DNA of 10,000 bases from Anaerolinea sp. (GTDB lineage: Bacteria > Chloroflexota > Anaerolineae > Anaerolineales > Anaerolineaceae). The DNA lies in contig JAIWNK010000110.1 of assembly GCA_020216845.1 (NCBI GenBank), positions 1 through 10,000 of the forward strand, in the 5' to 3' direction. Every line of letters begins with the position of its first letter. The stretch's first letter is position 1. Shown in pieces: positions 1,477-10,000 of the stretch. Made by a program: the position numbers and the translations under genes. Under the pieces are notes generated by a model that saw only the letters and a program-made list of their open reading frames with translations, was not told the DNA's origin and made no database searches.

Positions 1477-3111
1477 GTGAAAACTCATTTCCTGTTTAAA
1501 GTTTGGGTGATTGGAATGGCTTTGAGCCTGTTGTTGACCGCCTGTCAGGGCAGTGGCACGAGCAACAAGACGTTTGAACCGCTGATCGTACAGGCCGCGA
1601 ACTGTGATTACGGGGGCAAAATTCGTTCGATTGAGGCGATTGACGCGCTGACCGTGCGTTTCACGCTTTGTTCACCCGATGCGGCTTTCCTTGCCAAGGT
1701 TGCTTCGCCGGCTTTCTCGATTCAAGATCGGAATACGCTGGATCAATATCAGGGCGATGCGCTTAAAATCAGTCAAAATGTGAATGGAACCGGCCCATAC
1801 GTGGTCAAGCTTTGGGTACCGGGGGATCGGTTGGAGCTGCAAGCCAACCCGAATTATTGGGATGTGCCGGCGCGCAATCAGGAAATGTTGTTGAGGTGGG
1901 CGAGTAGTTCGAATGTCCGTTTGGGCGAATTGCGCTTTGGCAAAGTGGATGGGGCCGACAACTTGAACGCTGCCTCGCTTAGCGAGCAACTATCCGGCGA
2001 CAACACCTATCGCGTCTATCAACGTCCGGCGTTGAATCTTGCGTATTTGGGAATGAATCGTAACATAGCGCCGTTTGATGATGTGCGCGTGCGACAAGCG
2101 TTCTCGCTGGCGCTGGGGCGGCGCTCGATCGTGAATCAGACTTTTCCGCTTGGGTCGCTGTTGGCGGAGCAAATTGTGCCGCCTTCGATGCAGCCGGGCT
2201 ATACCGATGGGTTGCGTTGGTATGATTACAATCCCAAAGAAGCGGAAGATTTGCTCAAAGAGGCTGGGTTCGATTTCAACCAGGAAATTGAGCTGACTTA
2301 TCCCTATGTTCCGCCGACGGTGATGCCGGACAATGAAAAAGTGGCTCAGCTGATTCAAGAGCAATTGAAGCTGGTTAATGTCAAAGTGCGCTTAAACCGC
2401 TCGCGCAATTTTGAGACGTTGTTGCAACAGGGAAAACTGGCTTTGTTTTTGTATGGCTTTGAAGCGGAATATTCAGACCCGACCGCGTTTTATGATACCT
2501 ATTTGGGCAGCAGCTCAACTTTGTTCGGTGATCCGCATCCGGAACTGGTGACGCTCATTCAGCAAGCGAATAATACAGTGGATGCAACAGCGCGGCAGGT
2601 GAGCTACAATGCGGTCAATGAAAAGGTGAAAGAGTTATCCCCGTTTGTGCCGTTGGCACACGTCAATTCGTTGTTGGCGTTTCGCGGCGATGTTTTGGGG
2701 GTGCGCATTGGCCCGTTGAACGAAAACTTTGAACAGATGAGCGCAGCAAGGGATCAATTGGTCTTTATTGGCTCCGAAACGCCCAAGACGTTGTGGCCGG
2801 TGGATGAGGTTAATGAAGATGCCTTGCGGGCAGCATCGCTGTTATATACGCCGTTGGTGCGTTATCAATATGGTGAAACGGGGGTTCGTCCTGGGTTGGC
2901 TGAATATTGGACGGTGAATAGCGATTTGACCGAATGGACGTTTTACCTGCGGTACAATGTGCATTTTAGCAATGGGGCCGTGTTGGATGCCAATGATGTG
3001 GTGGCGACCTTTGCAGCGCAGTGGGATGCTTCGAATCCCAATCATGTCGGCTTGCGTGGCGAATTCCCGTATTTCAAGAAATTTTTTGGCGCTTTTTTGA
3101 ACGCGAAGTAG
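1477..3111 (+). CDS. Extracellular solute-binding lipoprotein, family 5 (SBP_bac_5), circularly permuted
   Basis: This is a predicted membrane-anchored binding protein of the oligopeptide/dipeptide (DppA/OppA-like) ABC-importer class, 544 residues. The GTG start at 1477 follows an AAGAGGAAG ribosome-binding site at 1465-1473 and gives a proper lipoprotein signal: KTHFLFK, a hydrophobic core and lipobox L20-T21-A22-C23. The rest is unmistakably family 5 but in altered order. Residues 48-80 (IRSIEAIDALTVRFTL) match a segment normally about 100 residues into the mature protein. They are followed by NGTGPYVV (103-110), the ANPNYWD motif (123-129) and the APFDDVRVRQAFSLAL segment (198-213). Next comes the C-terminal lobe ending near 427. 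Then residues 428-542 carry what is normally the N-terminus: a SETPKTL opening, LLYTPLVRY, RPGLAEYW, WTFYLRYNVHFSNG, DANDVVATF and QWDASNPNH. The frame is clean and the length normal, which argues against simple truncation. The ligand is unknown. No permease or ATPase gene lies nearby. It is probably co-transcribed with the next gene. Confidence 0.85.
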   Translation: MKTHFLFKVWVIGMALSLLLTACQGSGTSNKTFEPLIVQAANCDYGGKIRSIEAIDALTVRFTLCSPDAAFLAKVASPAFSIQDRNTLDQYQGDALKISQNVNGTGPYVVKLWVPGDRLELQANPNYWDVPARNQEMLLRWASSSNVRLGELRFGKVDGADNLNAASLSEQLSGDNTYRVYQRPALNLAYLGMNRNIAPFDDVRVRQAFSLALGRRSIVNQTFPLGSLLAEQIVPPSMQPGYTDGLRWYDYNPKEAEDLLKEAGFDFNQEIELTYPYVPPTVMPDNEKVAQLIQEQLKLVNVKVRLNRSRNFETLLQQGKLALFLYGFEAEYSDPTAFYDTYLGSSSTLFGDPHPELVTLIQQANNTVDATARQVSYNAVNEKVKELSPFVPLAHVNSLLAFRGDVLGVRIGPLNENFEQMSAARDQLVFIGSETPKTLWPVDEVNEDALRAASLLYTPLVRYQYGETGVRPGLAEYWTVNSDLTEWTFYLRYNVHFSNGAVLDANDVVATFAAQWDASNPNHVGLRGEFPYFKKFFGAFLNAK

Positions 3112-3123
3112 CCTAACAAGGAT

Positions 3124-3128
3124 GGAGG
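3124..3128 (+). promoter_or_regulatory. Ribosome-binding site that sets the macroglobulin start
   Basis: GGAGG at 3124-3128 lies five bases before the ATG at 3134. An upstream in-frame ATG at 3122 overlaps this Shine-Dalgarno and has only AAGG touching it, too close to act. The ATG at 3134 is therefore the better start, shortening the protein by four residues. Confidence 0.8.
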
Positions 3129-3133
3129 AAGCA

Positions 3134-6100
3134 ATGAAACCATTGTCCGTTGAAATTTGGCGTGGCAAGCTGTATCTGGCGTTGACAATCTTGGTTTTGG
3201 GCAGCCTGGCGTGCAGTTTGCCGTTTGTGCGCCAAACGCCAACGGCAGAGACCCAATCGCCAACGTTGGCACCGGCGCAACCGGTGCGTTTGCCGCCTGC
3301 TGTGGTCGAAGCGGAACCGTTTCCTGGTACAACGCTGTCCTTGAATTCGGGGGTGAAGCTGCTTTTCAATCAGCCCATGGAGCGTTTATCCGTAGAAGGA
3401 GCCTTGAAAGTTGAACCGGCAGTGGGTGGGCGTTTTGAGTGGCAGGATGATAGCAGTGTGACTTTTGTGCCCGATCAGACCTTGCCCGCAGGTAGTGACC
3501 TGAAGGTCACGATCGGGGAGACGGCACGCGCAGCCAATGGCATTGCGTTGCAAGAAGCGATTGTGTTTGAGTATACGACCGCTGAACCGTTGCGGGCGAC
3601 ACAGCGCTTGCCGGAAGGCAATGCGGTTGATCCGTTTGCCGCAGTCGTTGTGGCTTTCAATCAGCCGGTTGTGGCTTTAGGAGCCGAGACACAAGATTTG
3701 CCGGTGGCGTTGACCTTGGAGCCGACAACAAAGGGGCGCGGCGAATGGCTGAATACCAGTACCTACATTTTCTATCCTGAACCAGCGCTGGCGGGCGGGG
3801 TCACGTATACAGCGCGCATCAACCCGGATTTGATCAGTGTGGCGGGCAGCCGTCTGGCAGAAGATTCGGCCATGCCCTGGCAGTTTACCACAACGATCCC
3901 GGCCTTTTTGCGGCTTTCAACGCAAACGGAATTGTCGTTGCCATTGGATGAGGTGTTTGAGATGACCTTCAATCAGCCGATGGATCGCGTCAAAACCGAG
4001 GCAGCTTTTTCGTTGACAGATGCGAATGGTAAGGTGGTTGAGGGAAAATTTGAATGGGAGCAACAAGATACGGTGATGCGCTTCCAACCACTGAACTTAC
4101 TCAAACGCGATACGGGCTATACCTTGCGCCTGACGGAGAAAGCAACCGGGCTCAGCGGCGCAGCGCTGGAAAATCCGCAATTGATTAAGCTGTGGAGCGT
4201 TGGCAACCTGACGTTGACGCAGTCACGCCCGGCGGAGGGGGAACAGCTGGATTTGTATGAACGCTATGGCTCTGTTTATCTGGGCTTCAGCACGCCGCTT
4301 AAGGCCGATCAGGATTTGGAGGCCTTGGTTCGGATTGATCCGCCCATTCAGGATCTTTCCTTGTATGCTGATAACCAAACGCTGATGATGTATGGCGTAT
4401 TTGATTATGATACAACGTATACCGTCACGCTCAAAGGGCAGCTGCAAGATCGCTGGGGTGGCGTATTAGGGGAGGATCAGCGCTTGATCTTTTGGACGGC
4501 AAATGCGACCCCGAAGACGGTTGTGCCGATGGTGCAGGTAGCTAGCTCGTCCTTGTTCATCGCTCCCTGGGAAACAACCATTCCTGTGCAAACGATCAAT
4601 ATCAATCGTTTGGATGTGATTCGCTACAATATGAAGCCGATGGACTGGATGCAATTGAATGATGCCAATGAGGTGGCTTCGATGCCGGAGGCGGATCGCT
4701 GGCAGCAGGCTTTGCCGCAGGCGGTGAATCAGACGCAGAGTACGGATCTCAAAATTTCACGCGATGGATTGCAATTGTTGCCTGGTATTTATGGAATGCA
4801 AGTTCGAGATGGGCTGAGTGAGCCAAATTATTTTAGCTTAATCATCAGCCGAGTGCACCTGACGCTAAAACGCAGTCCAAATGAGTTGTTTATCTGGGCA
4901 GTCAACCTGGAAACGCAGGCACCGATTGGCGGGGCGCGCCTGACGATTTATGATAAGGCGGGCAATGCGTTGGGGAATGTGGTGACCGATCAGAATGGGC
5001 AGGCGGTCTTTTCTCGCAAGCTGGACCGGAATAGTGAATTGTTCGTGGTGACTGGGCAACCGGGCGAACCGTTGTTTGGCATTGCCGGCACCAGCATGGA
5101 ATATGGTTTGCAGCCGTGGCAGTTTGGGGTGGCTACATTGTATCAGGATCAACCTGAGCATGTTTATGTGTATACGGATCGGCCCATCTATCGCCCTGGG
5201 CAAACAGTGGCCTGGCGTGGCGCATTGCATGTGCGCGACAATGGGCGCTATTATCTGCCAACCGAGCGCAATCAGGTGGGCGTAGCAGTGTATGGCCCCT
5301 ATGACGAGAATTATCAGCGGCCGTTGCTTTTTCAGACGACATTGCCGTTATCTGGCTTTGGCACGTTTGATGGCACCTTTGAGCTGCCGCCGGATGCACA
5401 GCCGGGCATGTATGCGATTGATGTGGAAGAAATTGGACAGATTTCTTTCCAGGTGGCCAATTATCGCAAGCCGGAAGTTGAGCTAAGCCTGAGTGCACCG
5501 AGTGCGGTGGCCCCCGGAACAGACCTGGGGGCTGGTGTTCGCGCTCAGTACTATTTTGGCGCTCCGGCTAGCAATTTGCCGGTGCAGTGGTCTTTGTATG
5601 CGCAGCCAGAGTATGTGGGAATTGATGGCTATCAGGTTGGGCCATTGGGAGATTTTCGTTGGAGCTGGGCTGAGAATACGCCCGGACGATTGGTGCTGAG
5701 CGGTGAGGGGATAACCGATAAAAATGGCATGTTTGCCGTTTCGATTGCGGAAGAGGACTATCGAAACATGTTGATGACCCCTGGTCAACCGATGCGCCTG
5801 ACCATTGAATTTACGGTGCAAGATGAAAATGGGCAGCAAGTTAGCGGGCGGACAACGACGATCCATTATCCGGAACTGTTCCTGATTGGGGCGCGCAGTG
5901 AAACCTGGACGGGGCAAGCTGGGACGGATATGCTTTTCTCGCTGCGCACCTTCAATTGGGATAAACAACCTGCGGGCAGCAAATCGGTGACGGCAGTCTT
6001 CCAACAAGCCAGGTGGGAGCGCAACGGTGTGGATCAGATGGGGAGCCCTGCTTATCAAAAAGTGTTGACCGAGGTGGGGCGCACGACCCTGGTAACCGAT

Positions 6101-9010
6101 TCGCAGGGGCAGGTGCAGATGACATTCACGCCGCCAGCTGCAGGGGTTTATCAATTGGATGTGAGCAGTGGTGGCGCGTTGACGCAGTTGATGGTTTGGG
6201 TGAATGGGAGTGGTGTGGGCTCGTGGCCGCGTTTGCCTGACCAACGGATTGAGCTGCAAACGGATGCACAAGAATATAGCGTGGGGCAAACAGCCCATAT
6301 TTTGATCCCCAATCCATTTGAGGGGGAAGTGCTTGGGTTGGTGACGGTTGAACGTGGGTTGGTGATGCGTTCGCAGCTGATTCGGTTTTCTGGGCCAAGT
6401 TATGATCTTGGGCTGTCTTTGATGGATGAGGATGCACCGAATGTGTATGTCTCGGTTTTGTTGCTGCGCAGCGCAGAGCGACAGCGCCCCGATTTCCGGT
6501 TGGGTTTGGTGAATGTCAAAGTAAAGCCAGATCACTTGCTGTTGCAATTGGGCCTGACGATTGATCCGCCGCGTGCTGCTCCGGGGGATACGGTGCGGGT
6601 GACCCTGGAAGCGCGAGATGCGCTTGGACAGCCGGTGCAGGGTGAGTTCTCCTTATCGGTGGTGGATAAGGCTTTGTTGGCCTTGAAAGATGATAATGCG
6701 TTACCGATTGAGGATGCTTTCTACGGCGAACAGCTTTTGGAAGTGCGGACGACGCTGGATATGGCGGTATACGCCCGGCGAATTGAGCAGTATAAACAAC
6801 CGTTTGGGCGCGGCGGTGGTGGCGATGGTGTGCCGGTTGAGCAGATGCCTTCATCTTTTGTACGCGAAGATTTTCGCGATACTGCCTATTGGAATGCGAC
6901 CGTGCTGACAGATGAACAGGGGCAGGCGGTGATGGATGTTGCGCTGCCTGATAACCTGACAACGTGGGTTGTGTTGGGGCGTGGCCTCACCCGCACGGCT
7001 TTGGTTGGTGAGGCGCAAGCAGAGTTTGTGGTGACGCGCGAGTTGCTTGTGCGCCCGGTAACTCCTCGCTTTATGGTGTCGGGTGATCACGTGCAGCTTG
7101 CAGCTGTGGTGCACAACAATTCGCTGGAGAGCCGTAATGTGCAGGTCTCTTTGCAGGCAGATGGGTTTGTGTTGGATGATGCGGCTTTGGCCGTGCAAAC
7201 TGTGTTGTTGCCACCGGGGGAGCACACCCGTGTGACATGGTGGGGGCAGGTGAAGGACGTGGAGGGGGTTGAGCTGGTCTTCTCTGCAACGGCGGGTGAA
7301 CTGAGTGACAGTGCCCGTCCGGTGTGGGGAACATTGCCAGTGCTGCGCTATAGCGCGCCTTTGACCTTTGGCACGTCGGGTGTGATGACGGATGGCGGAC
7401 GGCGTTTGGAGGCAATCAGTTTGCCGCGTTCCTATACGCCAAGCGGAGGTATGTTGCAGGTGGAGCTTGCACCGTCGCTGGCGGCGACCATTTTGGGCGA
7501 ATTGCCGGTCTTAGAAGCCTATCCATATGATTACACGGAAGCCATCCTGTCGCGTTTGTTGCCCAATGTGGAGAGTTATCGCATCTTAAATGACCTTAAG
7601 ACGGGCACGCCAGAAACAAAGGCGGAGCTGAAGGCGCAAATTGAGGCTGCTTTGGAGCAGTTGTCGCGCATGCAGAATCAAGATGGCGGTTGGGGCTGGC
7701 AACAGGGCAGCGATTCGGATGCCTATTTGACGGCTTATGCTTTGTTTGGCTTGCTGGAGGCCAATCGGGCTGGGTTTGTGGTAAGTTCACAGGCAATTAG
7801 CAATGCGCAGAATTATTTACAAGGTCAGCCAGAACCGGGCGCAGCTGCGCAAGGTTGGGAACTGGACCGGGGCGTTTTTCGGAATTTTGTTTTGGCGCGC
7901 AGTGGCATTGCCGTAGATTGGACGCGTTGGTATGAGCAGCGCAGTTTGCTCAGTCCCTGGGCACAGGCGCTGACGGCCTGGGGTCTGACGCAGCAATCAC
8001 CGGGCAGTGACGCAGCACGGACGTTGCTTTCGGATGTGCAGGCGCGAGCTGAACGTTCGGCGACGGGTGTGCATTGGCAAGGGCTGGAAGACGATTGGCA
8101 TAACTTCACGACCCCGAACTATACGACGGCGGTGGTGCTATATGTGCTGGCAACCCTTGACCCGGCTAACCCAATCGTGCCGGATACGGTGCGCTATTTG
8201 GTGATGCATCGCAAAGCGAGCATGGGCTGGGGGTCTAGTTACGAAACAAGTTGGGTCATTTTGGCGTTGGGGCAGGTGATGCGCGGCACGGGCGATTTGC
8301 GCCCCAATTTTCAGTTTTCGGCGGCGTTGAATGACCGTCCTATTCTCAATGGAACGACCAACGGGACGGAAACGGTCACGGTGGCACAGGCGGTGCTGCC
8401 GTTATCTGATTTGCAAGAACGCTCGCCCAACACCCTGGTGATTGAACGGACACCGGGGAGCAGCTGGTTGTATTACCGCTCTTATTTGCAACTCAACCGT
8501 CCAGTGGTGGATGCGCAGCCGATGATGCGCGGGTTGCAAATTGATCGTCAGTATTATGCCTATGGCCAGGATTGTCGGATGCCAGATTGTGAACCCTTGC
8601 AGCGGGTTTCGCTGAGCGCAATGGATGGGCAGGTGTTGGTGCGTTTGACGGTGACCGTGCCCAAGGAAATGTATTACGTGATGGTGGAAGATGTTATTCC
8701 GGCTGGCATGGAGGTGCTGGATTTGAGCCTGAAGACCAGCCAACAAGGCGGGCAAGGCGAGGAGTGGTTTGACCCGCGCAATCCATTTGGCAATGGGTGG
8801 GGCTGGTGGTGGTTTGATGCACCGAAAATTTATGATATGCGGGTGCAATGGATGGCGCGTTACCTGCCAGCTGGGACGTATGAGCTGACCTATCGGCTTT
8901 TGCCGGTGACGGCAGGGGAATATCAAGTGTTGCCGGCGCGGGCCTGGATGTACTTCTTCCCAGAGGTGGAAGGTGTGAGCGGTGGTGCCTTGTTTGAGGT
9001 GACGCCGTAG
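3134..9010 (+). CDS. Alpha-2-macroglobulin-like lipoprotein without thioester
   Basis: This giant protein (1958 residues) belongs to the bacterial alpha-2-macroglobulin family, thought to trap or inhibit proteases at the cell surface. Its signal peptide ends in SLAC with the lipidated Cys at residue 27. S at -3 and L at -2 are atypical but allowed. Four Ig-like (Big_5-type) repeats follow, marked by FNQPM (78), FNQPV (175), FNQPM (279) and GFSTPL (about 384). Macroglobulin domains come next, including the MG2 signature YTDRPIYRPGQTV (680-692) and a bait-region-type domain (about 1036-1184, ending VVDKALLAL). A GRGGGGDG linker (1225-1232) leads to the PF00207-type core (AYWNATVLTDEQG to LPDNLTTWVVLGRGLT, about 1246-1286), a thioester-type alpha/alpha toroid (about 1430-1720) and a C-terminal domain with YVMVEDVIPAGMEVLD and LPAGTYELTYRLLP. 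The usual GC-x-EQ thioester site reads D1466-Y-T-E-A1470, so no thioester can form. The only other cysteines are C1814 and C1819, a possible disulfide. It lies 22 bp after the binding-protein gene, with no terminator between. No pbpC-like partner is adjacent. Confidence 0.92.
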   Translation: MKPLSVEIWRGKLYLALTILVLGSLACSLPFVRQTPTAETQSPTLAPAQPVRLPPAVVEAEPFPGTTLSLNSGVKLLFNQPMERLSVEGALKVEPAVGGRFEWQDDSSVTFVPDQTLPAGSDLKVTIGETARAANGIALQEAIVFEYTTAEPLRATQRLPEGNAVDPFAAVVVAFNQPVVALGAETQDLPVALTLEPTTKGRGEWLNTSTYIFYPEPALAGGVTYTARINPDLISVAGSRLAEDSAMPWQFTTTIPAFLRLSTQTELSLPLDEVFEMTFNQPMDRVKTEAAFSLTDANGKVVEGKFEWEQQDTVMRFQPLNLLKRDTGYTLRLTEKATGLSGAALENPQLIKLWSVGNLTLTQSRPAEGEQLDLYERYGSVYLGFSTPLKADQDLEALVRIDPPIQDLSLYADNQTLMMYGVFDYDTTYTVTLKGQLQDRWGGVLGEDQRLIFWTANATPKTVVPMVQVASSSLFIAPWETTIPVQTININRLDVIRYNMKPMDWMQLNDANEVASMPEADRWQQALPQAVNQTQSTDLKISRDGLQLLPGIYGMQVRDGLSEPNYFSLIISRVHLTLKRSPNELFIWAVNLETQAPIGGARLTIYDKAGNALGNVVTDQNGQAVFSRKLDRNSELFVVTGQPGEPLFGIAGTSMEYGLQPWQFGVATLYQDQPEHVYVYTDRPIYRPGQTVAWRGALHVRDNGRYYLPTERNQVGVAVYGPYDENYQRPLLFQTTLPLSGFGTFDGTFELPPDAQPGMYAIDVEEIGQISFQVANYRKPEVELSLSAPSAVAPGTDLGAGVRAQYYFGAPASNLPVQWSLYAQPEYVGIDGYQVGPLGDFRWSWAENTPGRLVLSGEGITDKNGMFAVSIAEEDYRNMLMTPGQPMRLTIEFTVQDENGQQVSGRTTTIHYPELFLIGARSETWTGQAGTDMLFSLRTFNWDKQPAGSKSVTAVFQQARWERNGVDQMGSPAYQKVLTEVGRTTLVTDSQGQVQMTFTPPAAGVYQLDVSSGGALTQLMVWVNGSGVGSWPRLPDQRIELQTDAQEYSVGQTAHILIPNPFEGEVLGLVTVERGLVMRSQLIRFSGPSYDLGLSLMDEDAPNVYVSVLLLRSAERQRPDFRLGLVNVKVKPDHLLLQLGLTIDPPRAAPGDTVRVTLEARDALGQPVQGEFSLSVVDKALLALKDDNALPIEDAFYGEQLLEVRTTLDMAVYARRIEQYKQPFGRGGGGDGVPVEQMPSSFVREDFRDTAYWNATVLTDEQGQAVMDVALPDNLTTWVVLGRGLTRTALVGEAQAEFVVTRELLVRPVTPRFMVSGDHVQLAAVVHNNSLESRNVQVSLQADGFVLDDAALAVQTVLLPPGEHTRVTWWGQVKDVEGVELVFSATAGELSDSARPVWGTLPVLRYSAPLTFGTSGVMTDGGRRLEAISLPRSYTPSGGMLQVELAPSLAATILGELPVLEAYPYDYTEAILSRLLPNVESYRILNDLKTGTPETKAELKAQIEAALEQLSRMQNQDGGWGWQQGSDSDAYLTAYALFGLLEANRAGFVVSSQAISNAQNYLQGQPEPGAAAQGWELDRGVFRNFVLARSGIAVDWTRWYEQRSLLSPWAQALTAWGLTQQSPGSDAARTLLSDVQARAERSATGVHWQGLEDDWHNFTTPNYTTAVVLYVLATLDPANPIVPDTVRYLVMHRKASMGWGSSYETSWVILALGQVMRGTGDLRPNFQFSAALNDRPILNGTTNGTETVTVAQAVLPLSDLQERSPNTLVIERTPGSSWLYYRSYLQLNRPVVDAQPMMRGLQIDRQYYAYGQDCRMPDCEPLQRVSLSAMDGQVLVRLTVTVPKEMYYVMVEDVIPAGMEVLDLSLKTSQQGGQGEEWFDPRNPFGNGWGWWWFDAPKIYDMRVQWMARYLPAGTYELTYRLLPVTAGEYQVLPARAWMYFFPEVEGVSGGALFEVTP

Positions 9011-9030: not shown

Positions 9031-9068
9031 CAAGAGACATGGCCAATTGCCATGTCTCTTGTTTTTTT
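9031..9068 (+). terminator. Intrinsic terminator of the SBP-macroglobulin operon
   Basis: A perfect 13-bp stem (9031-9043 with 9049-9061) encloses a 5-base loop (CAATT) and is followed directly by seven T residues (9062-9068). It begins 20 bp after the macroglobulin stop. The T-tract overlaps the stop codon of the convergent phaR-like gene at 9067-9069. Read from the other strand the hairpin lacks a U-tract, so it should act mainly on rightward transcription. Confidence 0.93.
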
Positions 9069-9573
9069 AGGCTTGCTTGCGCAGCGACTGAATTTGTTGT
9101 TCCAGTTGTTCGATTTGTCTTTGCAACTCGCTCAGGTCTTCGGGCGAAGCTGGGTCTTGCGGGTCGGGCGGCGGGGCGGGGTGCAGGCTGGGGTCTAGCA
9201 ACAATTGCAACATTTGTTCCGCTTGTGCGGGGGAGAAATAGCCTTTTTGCACCAGATGATTGACGCGCCGGCGGGTTTCTTGCTCAAAGCTGCCTGTGGG
9301 GTCGAGAAATGCATTGACCGAATGGCGTAGCTCACTGCCGGTTTGCAACAGGCGAGCAAAGAAGGCCTCAGGCAGGTGCATCAGCGCTTGTTTTTGCTGT
9401 TCGATGATGACCTGCATCAATGTTGCTGAGGTTAGGTCTTCGCCGCTGTTGTGGTCAAGGACTTGAATTTCTTCGCCAAGCTGAATGGCCTGGGCAATTT
9501 CGTTCAAGCTGATGTAACTGCCGCTTTGCAGATCGTAGAGCTTGCGGTTGGCATAGCGCTTGATGATGCGCAT
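9067..9573 (-). CDS. phaR: PhaR-type polyhydroxyalkanoate synthesis regulator
   Basis: This is a predicted cytoplasmic DNA-binding regulator of 168 residues. Family members repress phasin genes and their own gene and are titrated away by polyhydroxyalkanoate granules. Residues 1-60 form the PHB/PHA accumulation regulator DNA-binding domain: IIKRYANRKLYD (3-14), SYISLNEIAQAI, GEEIQVLDHNSGEDLTSATL and QVIIEQQ. Residues 64-110 (LPEAFFARLLQTGSELRHSV and onward) form a helical region. A proline-rich linker (about 128-144, PAPPPDPQDP) leads to a C-terminal coiled coil (146-166, LSELQRQIEQLEQQIQSL). The ATG at 9573 lies six bases after the stop of the phasin-like gene and has only a weak AAGAG upstream, so translational coupling is likely. 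No PHA synthase is in the window, so the link to PHA comes from family and neighbour. Chloroflexota homologues may have broader roles. Confidence 0.87.
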   Translation of the reverse strand: MRIIKRYANRKLYDLQSGSYISLNEIAQAIQLGEEIQVLDHNSGEDLTSATLMQVIIEQQKQALMHLPEAFFARLLQTGSELRHSVNAFLDPTGSFEQETRRRVNHLVQKGYFSPAQAEQMLQLLLDPSLHPAPPPDPQDPASPEDLSELQRQIEQLEQQIQSLRKQA

Positions 9574-9579
9574 GGGGGA

Positions 9580-9924
9580 TTACTCTTGCGCTTTCTTCAT
9601 TTCTTCAAGCTTTTGGCTCAGCTCTGCAATGCGGGCAGCAAGCGCTTCGACATCAGCTTTGGTGGCGACCGCCGGGTGGGCCTGGGCAGCTTGAGCTTTG
9701 CGTTCGCGCTCAGCCTTTTCGCGCCGTTCAATTGCTTCACGCATCAGGCGGCGAGCATCTTTTTCGGCAATTTCGCCGCGTTCGGCCATGCGGGTGAGGA
9801 AGCTATCTACTTCTTCCTGGGCAATCATCGTTGCACCGACAGCGGCCAGGGTTAGTTTGCGCAATGTGCGATAGAAGGGGCTGTGCTTTTCTTCTTGTTC
9901 TTGTGGCTGAGTTTGTGTGGACAT
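9580..9924 (-). CDS. Phasin-like granule-associated protein (COG3937 type)
   Basis: This small, highly charged helical protein has 114 residues. It resembles the phasin-type polyhydroxyalkanoate synthesis regulator family. The N-terminus is Gln/Glu-rich and polar. An amphipathic to hydrophobic helix follows (TLRKLTLAAVGATMIAQEEV, 20-39), then SFLTRMAERGEIAEKDARRLMRE (41-63). Next come a basic Arg/Lys/Glu helix (to about 80), an Ala/Pro-rich hinge (QAHPAVATKA) and a C-terminal coiled coil (DVEALAARIAELSQKLEEM, 91-109). There are no cysteines and no signal peptide. The frame opens further upstream to 9999, but the ATG at 9924 has an ideal GGAGGT site six bases before it, and the upstream extension crosses the predicted promoter. 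It is the first gene of an operon with the PhaR-type regulator. A role at the surface of a storage granule is inferred from family and partner. Confidence 0.78.
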   Translation of the reverse strand: MSTQTQPQEQEEKHSPFYRTLRKLTLAAVGATMIAQEEVDSFLTRMAERGEIAEKDARRLMREAIERREKAERERKAQAAQAHPAVATKADVEALAARIAELSQKLEEMKKAQE

Positions 9925-9930
9925 GGGAGA

Positions 9931-9936
9931 ACCTCC
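9931..9936 (-). promoter_or_regulatory. Ribosome-binding site that sets the phasin-like start
   Basis: GGAGGT on the minus strand, six bases before the ATG at 9924, is a near-perfect Shine-Dalgarno. It rejects the longer reading frame that starts at 9999. Confidence 0.85.
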
Positions 9937-9957
9937 ATTTGTGATAACAGTTTTCTT

Positions 9958-9987
9958 TTGACGCGCTGCGTCATTGATTATTATAAT
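9958..9987 (+). promoter_or_regulatory. Possible outward promoter toward a gene right of the window
   Basis: On the plus strand TTGACG (9958-9963) and TATAAT (9982-9987) are separated by 18 bp, which fits a sigma-70 promoter reading out of the window. Its -10 box overlaps the minus-strand -10 because ATTATAAT (9980-9987) is self-complementary. Whether either or both are used depends on the gene beyond the edge. Confidence 0.4.
9980..9985 (-). promoter_or_regulatory. -10 box of the phasin/phaR operon promoter
   Basis: A perfect TATAAT on the minus strand would start transcription near 9973, giving a leader of about 49 nt. With normal spacing the -35 box would fall just past the right edge (about 10003-10008), so it cannot be checked here. 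The TTGACG at 9994-9999 on this strand is only 8 bp away and cannot pair with it. Confidence 0.5.
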
Positions 9988-10000
9988 GCGGTGCGTCAAA

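Follow-up and report, generated by a model that had tools for sequence, protein, structure and literature searches.

The question raised by this locus is whether a gene that carries the parts of a family-5 solute-binding protein (SBP) in the wrong order encodes an intact lipoprotein and, if so, what that protein does. The gene lies in a 10,000-nucleotide stretch of Anaerolinea sp. DNA (contig JAIWNK010000110.1), which is referred to throughout as the window. The original prediction was of a functional, circularly permuted protein. Coordinates are collected in Table 1.

Segment order of the window protein and its spread

The reading frame opens with GTG and continues without interruption or internal stop. 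The lipobox, which ends at Cys23, is on the new N-terminus, as originally noted. All eight motifs looked up, whose swapped order had drawn attention to the gene, are present in the protein. Those of the conventional N-terminal segment, placed by the original prediction at residues 428–542, were found across residues 433–540; the placing was right to a few residues. The segment that conventionally comes next was expected directly after the signal peptide, and IRSIEA starts at residue 49.

The only Pfam family matched by the window protein is PF00496 (E 7e-72; 243 bits for the whole protein, against a curated cut-off of 32.4). The best stretch pairs residues 46–346 with model positions 62–364. 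When the C-terminal fragment (residues 425–544) was scanned separately, residues 470–522 matched model positions 2–54 (E 1.7e-13). Thus, the profile search gives two matches with reversed model coordinates, the C-terminal one covering the model start, which is the pattern anticipated for a permuted protein. The conventional order is absent and no single collinear alignment over the protein was obtained. The pieces are also swapped with respect to the solved DppA chain 1dpe. Here, residues 49–422 align with DppA 124–505 (i-Evalue 4e-34) and residues 450–534 with DppA 25–116 (i-Evalue 7e-9). In sequence comparisons, the glutathione-binding GbpA chain 3m8u gave a swap identical to that of DppA.

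Structure prediction and comparison with DppA had also been proposed. The AlphaFold2 model of the window protein is confident (pLDDT 92.9) and its top structural matches are family-5 proteins. Residues of about 46–425 align with E. coli DppA 121–507, and both Foldseek and VIA-align recognised the cluster C fold in residues 46–425. These aligners are sequential and used mainly residues 37–425, so the permutation cannot appear in them as one superposition. Taken together, the window gene is an intact permuted SBP lipoprotein and the permutation is confirmed. We refer to this arrangement as CP1. CP1 proteins have their former N- and C-termini joined, and their new ends correspond to about residue 120 of DppA. 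Because the termini are relocated in this way, the lipid anchor would be on another part of the N-lobe, at a site that we take to be domain II from the domain limits of OppA.

Table 1. Locations of the features discussed (positions without a locus handle refer to the window).
Feature	Location	Strand	Basis or remark
Circularly permuted family-5 solute-binding lipoprotein (CP1), 544 aa	1477..3111	+	ORF, PF00496, DppA alignment, AlphaFold2 model
Signal peptide with lipobox LLLTAC, Cys23	1477..1545	+	Motif read by eye; model helix 2-22; lipidation inferred from motif
Cys43, new N-terminus, putative disulfide partner	1603..1605	+	Cys in 85/88 CP1 sequences
Residues 46-425, middle and C-terminal parts of a conventional protein (about DppA 121-507)	1612..2751	+	DppA alignment
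Cys65, putative disulfide partner	1669..1671	+	Cys in 87/88 CP1 sequences
Pro280, column of the Arg matching DppA Arg383 in permease-linked CP1	2314..2316	+	Alignment; PMC12136057
Glu331, aligned with DppA Asp436	2467..2469	+	Alignment; PMC12136057
C-terminal residues 426-540, N-terminal segment of a conventional protein (about DppA 25-116)	2752..3096	+	1dpe, PF00496 matches
Alpha-2-macroglobulin-like gene, N-terminal lipobox-like motif	3122..9010 (start 3122 or 3134)	+	Directly downstream of CP1
PhaR-like repressor and phasin-like protein	9067-9573 and 9580-9999	-	Both below NCBIfam cut-offs
CP3 genes	L144:5884-7617; L172:8163-9956; L173:7461-8942		Permease and ATPase genes adjacent
Fusion proteins	L124:4618-8016; L122:6769-10779; L116:4409-6886; L054:8659-11532		

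The CP1 order is widespread. Counting the query and its 99% copy P0002, 45 of the 121 proteins compared are permuted (P0001–P0044, P0050) and the other 76 have the conventional order or a one-piece match only; these protein-search counts are lower bounds (about 8000 candidates were scored per search). One homologue, P0003, is full-length and 80% identical to the window protein. The 43 closest database matches (P0002–P0044) are all permuted alike, and the close homologues of conventional order that would have pointed to a local rearrangement were not found among them.

Among near genomes, 42 of 61 gave a match at E<=1.2e-46, some of these being contig-end fragments and one (G008) the CP3 arrangement described below. 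In a sample of 396 genomes from the class, 177 matched at E<=1e-42, and all matches listed, down to E 1e-74, cross the junction between the old termini. The phylum sample gave 62 matching genomes out of 400. The junction is crossed in 56; five cover query residues 45–418 only (conventional or unassigned order) and one match is partial. Thirty of the 62 come from other classes of the phylum, with the junction crossed in 24. Named CP1 matches are Thermoflexus, Thermanaerothrix, Anaerolineaceae, Anaerolinea and Anaerolineae, in keeping with the earlier impression that homologues of like order exist in Chloroflexota. CP1 is thus a large clade, found here in Chloroflexota and mainly in Anaerolineae. 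Outside the phylum it may be absent: a contig scan across species with six peptide patterns recovered six loci, of which two are permuted (both Anaerolineae), one is conventional and three match in one piece.

Gene context and ligand residues

In most of the neighbourhoods fetched, permease genes of the DppB and DppC types come after the CP1 gene, often together with two oligopeptide-type ATPase genes. We called 46 CP1 genes in 44 of 51 fetched loci; the other seven, in which the simple ORF caller gave no full CP1 gene, were excluded. A dppB/C-like gene lies within four genes of 35 of the 46, including L050, where the permease-like gene stands behind a conventional binding-protein gene. A conventional gene, L053_12 (L053:12374-14386), also occurs about 2 kb downstream of the CP1 gene at its locus. 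Because most of the fetched CP1 genes are near dppBC genes, the permuted fold probably serves importers. Permease-linked CP1 proteins would capture peptide by the usual clam-shell closure and hand it over to DppBC.

In DppA, salt bridges hold the dipeptide; Arg383 contacts the peptide carboxylate and Asp436 the peptide amino group (PMC12136057). The Arg column corresponds to residue 280 of the window protein, or to residue 279 in the pairwise DppA alignment. Arg occupies position 280 in 40 of the 46 CP1 genes. A permease neighbour accompanies 35 of these 40 'Arg-plus' genes and none of the six 'Arg-minus' genes. Seventeen further CP1 genes were read, of which the truncated Arg-minus gene of L171 was dropped; a permease neighbour was present for 4/4 Arg-plus and 0/12 Arg-minus genes. 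The totals are 39/44 Arg-plus versus 0/18 Arg-minus, contig-end fragments (L142–L151) having been left out of the scoring. The Fisher p of 1.8e-11 for this association counts sequences, not independent events, because the sequences are related and the Arg-minus genes are one clade (40/40 tips, support 0.869). The outgroup was a distant basal group of eight CP1 sequences (P0037–P0042, P0044, P0050) that also lack the Arg. Five of the 44 Arg-plus genes are likewise without a neighbouring permease, in 2.2–4.6 kb of downstream sequence covered. All 44 Arg-plus genes have Asp at position 331. Among the 18 Arg-minus genes, the residue there is Asp in 13, Glu in three (the window gene included) and a different one in two.

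The window protein is Arg-minus. With Pro280 and Glu331 it lacks the Arg383/Asp436 salt-bridge pair, the acidic side being kept as Glu. Against the NCBIfam DppA equivalog it scores 160.8 bits, below the cut-off of 1005. No adjacent dppBC genes are present in the 10-kb contig, in a genome that is 76% complete, and the flanking genes are for L-lactate dehydrogenase (-) and an alpha-2-macroglobulin (A2M) (+).

Some Arg-minus members share a conserved locus with permease-linked CP1 genes. The divergent genes upstream of Arg-minus L158 and permease-linked Arg-plus L163 are homologous and in the same order, with identities of 52, 39 and 51%. This conserved group, of genes of about 181, 253 and 305 aa, thus occurs upstream of CP1 both with and without a permease (L158 4841-7078, L163 9686-11957). 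At the window, the L-lactate dehydrogenase gene occupies the slot instead. The simplest reading is that dppBC would have been lost from the locus together with the ligand Arg, leaving the binding protein intact.

We therefore favour, as the likely reading of these sequence data, that this CP1 member was once part of an importer, became uncoupled from its permease and has been retained at the cell surface as a lipoprotein that binds a ligand. It would no longer be an ordinary dipeptide carrier. One point against this is that 13 of the 18 Arg-minus genes retain the Asp, so that the ligand site may still be partly functional; such frequent retention of half the site speaks against complete loss of ligand binding in the branch.

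Alternatively, the window protein could still be an importer component with changed ligand specificity, feeding another Dpp/Opp-type permease in trans. Its cognate permease may lie elsewhere in the genome, of which 76% is represented. Contigs C21 and C158 of this genome carry two conventional SBP_5 genes that lie beside permease genes, and in P. aeruginosa several DppA paralogues are reported to share one DppBCDF (PMC4206461). Furthermore, 16 of the 18 genes of the window branch have an acidic residue at the Asp position. However, the Arg position is Pro280 in the window protein, and no gene of the branch with usable flanks has a dppBC neighbour. We consider supply in trans credible, though on the unlikely side.

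If the window protein is instead uncoupled and retained at the surface, a candidate partner is encoded next to it. The A2M gene has MG2, A2M_BRD, A2M, bMG and TED domains. These are shared with bacterial alpha-2-macroglobulins, and the gene is separate from that of the permuted protein. The window A2M lacks the CxEQ thioester motif, and none of the 13 CP1-adjacent A2M frames inspected, of which some are incomplete, contains it. An A2M gene is directly downstream of 10 of the 18 Arg-minus genes (the window, L043, L047, L055, L161, L162 and L165–L168), and none was seen beside the other eight (L040, L041, L156–L160 and L174). Two Arg-plus loci, L042 and L044, and the contig-end fragment L146 all have the arrangement CP1-dppB-dppC-A2M. 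Behind A2M there is a PhaR-like gene in the window and in L042, L043, L044, L047, L162 and L165 (three loci compared, L165 by eye). The window gene is plausibly co-expressed with the A2M gene, which starts 10 to 22 bases downstream, and its role could be in surface ligand binding or sensing, perhaps with A2M.

Origin of CP1 and further permutations

To place CP1, sequences were rotated to the conventional order and a FastTree tree was built from 83 conventional, 43 CP1 and 15 of 44 CP2 sequences, rooted on a conventional protein. CP1 is monophyletic (43/43 sequences, support 1.0). It groups with 11 DppA-like proteins of conventional order (support 0.968), one node inside this group being unsupported (0.146). 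Its sister in the sampled tree is the conventional-order SBP_bac_5 protein L053_12 (support 0.89), which is possibly close to the unpermuted parent of CP1. CP1 also carries a conserved pair of cysteines (Table 1). Column 43 is Cys in one of the 83 conventional sequences and a gap in 64, and column 65 is Cys in none of the 83. From this conservation we guess at a possible Cys43–Cys65 disulfide that would hold the new N-terminus.

Rather than by permutation of one gene, the order could have arisen if the C-terminal segment had been acquired from another gene, a route raised as a possibility for the Treponema pallidum protein TpMglB-2 (PMC4990184). The present comparisons gave no support for such an origin. 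Both segments best match the same DppA/GbpA chains and the rotated CP1 sequences group among DppA-like proteins, which makes acquisition very improbable. A local rearrangement, assembly error or decaying pseudogene can be dismissed almost entirely for, although the source genome is a draft bin of 168 contigs, the order is identical in 45 of the 121 proteins compared and across many genomes, P0003 is full-length, no stop interrupts the frame and the model is confident. The clade-wide order, the confident model and the proximity of 35/46 CP1 genes to dppB/C-like genes therefore make a functional permuted protein far likelier than a broken gene, in line with the original prediction.

A second SBP_bac_5 permutation, CP2, has a separate origin and is cut near the hinge. 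The example at L067 1903-3549 starts with DppA-like 295–522 and ends with 17–285, in the coordinates of conventional relatives, and its PF00496 match pairs residues 336–543 with model positions 1–209. CP2 also occurs in L061–L066. All 15 sequences used in the tree group together (support 1.0). At seven of the eight CP2 loci fetched, dppB- and dppC-like genes come after the CP2 gene, together with a single ATPase gene in L139 and with two in each of the remaining six; no clean ORF was obtained at the last locus (G012, L060/L134). A CP2 search at 1e-42 matched 34 of the 396 class genomes. Eleven have the collinear CP2 order and the other 23 gave separate pieces, in conventional order where both were listed. 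The conventional-order relatives of CP2 are 37–49% identical to it, and the CP2 model is weaker (pLDDT 80.5).

The third arrangement, CP3, was found in a single genus, in the three genomes G008, G876 and G884. It begins at query residue ~270, passes the old C-terminus and the free ends of CP1, and stops at ~265. At its internal junction, a CP1-like tail (FFGAFLNA) runs into a CP1-like head (APSCDYGG); its PF00496 match pairs residues 258–574 with model positions 1–278. After rotation, CP3 nests among Arg-plus CP1 proteins (0.946), with L170 as sister (0.851). Because of these junction ends and this nesting, CP3 appears to derive from a CP1 gene by a second permutation. L049 and L122 contain tandem CP1 genes, which would be plausible raw material for permutation.

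Some CP1 proteins are also extended. More than 200 residues precede the CP1 part in 17 of the 46 genes, 20 loci having been chosen for long frames; start codons of the fusions were picked mechanically and some extensions may be too long. Of ten long proteins scanned, eight carry other binding-protein domains upstream. These are SBP_bac_1 (L054), SBP_bac_3 (L113, L116, L119 and L120), one or two Peripla_BP_6 (two proteins in L122) and Peripla_BP_6 with SBP_bac_3 (L124). The extension in L115 has no recognised domain. Such fusions suggest multi-specific binding proteins. At L123:1926-5168, caspase (C14), HEAT and FHA domains seem to be joined in frame with a permuted SBP_bac_5, a fusion that could be genuine or could stem from errors in a draft bin.

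Relation to known systems and significance

The closest known systems are the Dpp-type importers of cluster C, with DppA and GbpA (HbpA). The window protein resembles these in the sequence of both segments and in the fold of residues 46–425, and most fetched CP1 relatives share the dppBC(DF) context. The window protein differs in its permuted order and in having neither the Arg nor a permease gene beside it.

TpMglB-2 (Tp0684) is a natural circular permutation of a lipid-anchored ABC SBP; its authors proposed the term 'Type Ic / Cluster Bc', discussed tethering as a possible reason and thought most homologues to be probably tethered (PMC4990184). It thus shares natural permutation and a lipid anchor with CP1. 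However, TpMglB-2 is described there as a Type I / cluster B sugar binder, of a different family and fold class from the window protein, which belongs to PF00496 and family 5. Tandem binding domains are known in GlnPQ where, however, they are joined to the transmembrane domain (PMC8025302). In literature on permutation, tandem binding domains and A2M, TpMglB-2 was the one natural permuted binding protein found. We found no report of a permuted family-5 or cluster C binding protein, in a search whose coverage left out most subscription journals. Hence, natural permutation of an SBP is already known and the family-5/cluster C instance appears new. For both CP1 and CP2 proteins the source names, where given, are 'substrate-binding' or 'hypothetical', and the permutation is therefore invisible from annotation.

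Why family-5 proteins of Chloroflexota should be permuted repeatedly, as CP1, CP2 and the re-permuted CP3, is a matter for speculation. A moved, anchored N-terminus might free the protein for tethering or for stringing behind other binding domains, and one CP1 branch might have left transport to pair with the co-encoded A2M lipoprotein in surface capture or sensing. We hold this combined explanation to be doubtful, with a small chance of being right as it stands.

A large and apparently active permuted family with unpermuted relatives is, in our judgement and not from a survey, seldom caught. Here, a single family in a single phylum shows three cut sites, and one of the permutations is nested within another. 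With these cut sites, and with conventional-order CP2 relatives at 37–49% identity, the effects of moving the termini on clam-shell closure, tethering to the membrane and docking with the permease are therefore testable by comparison.
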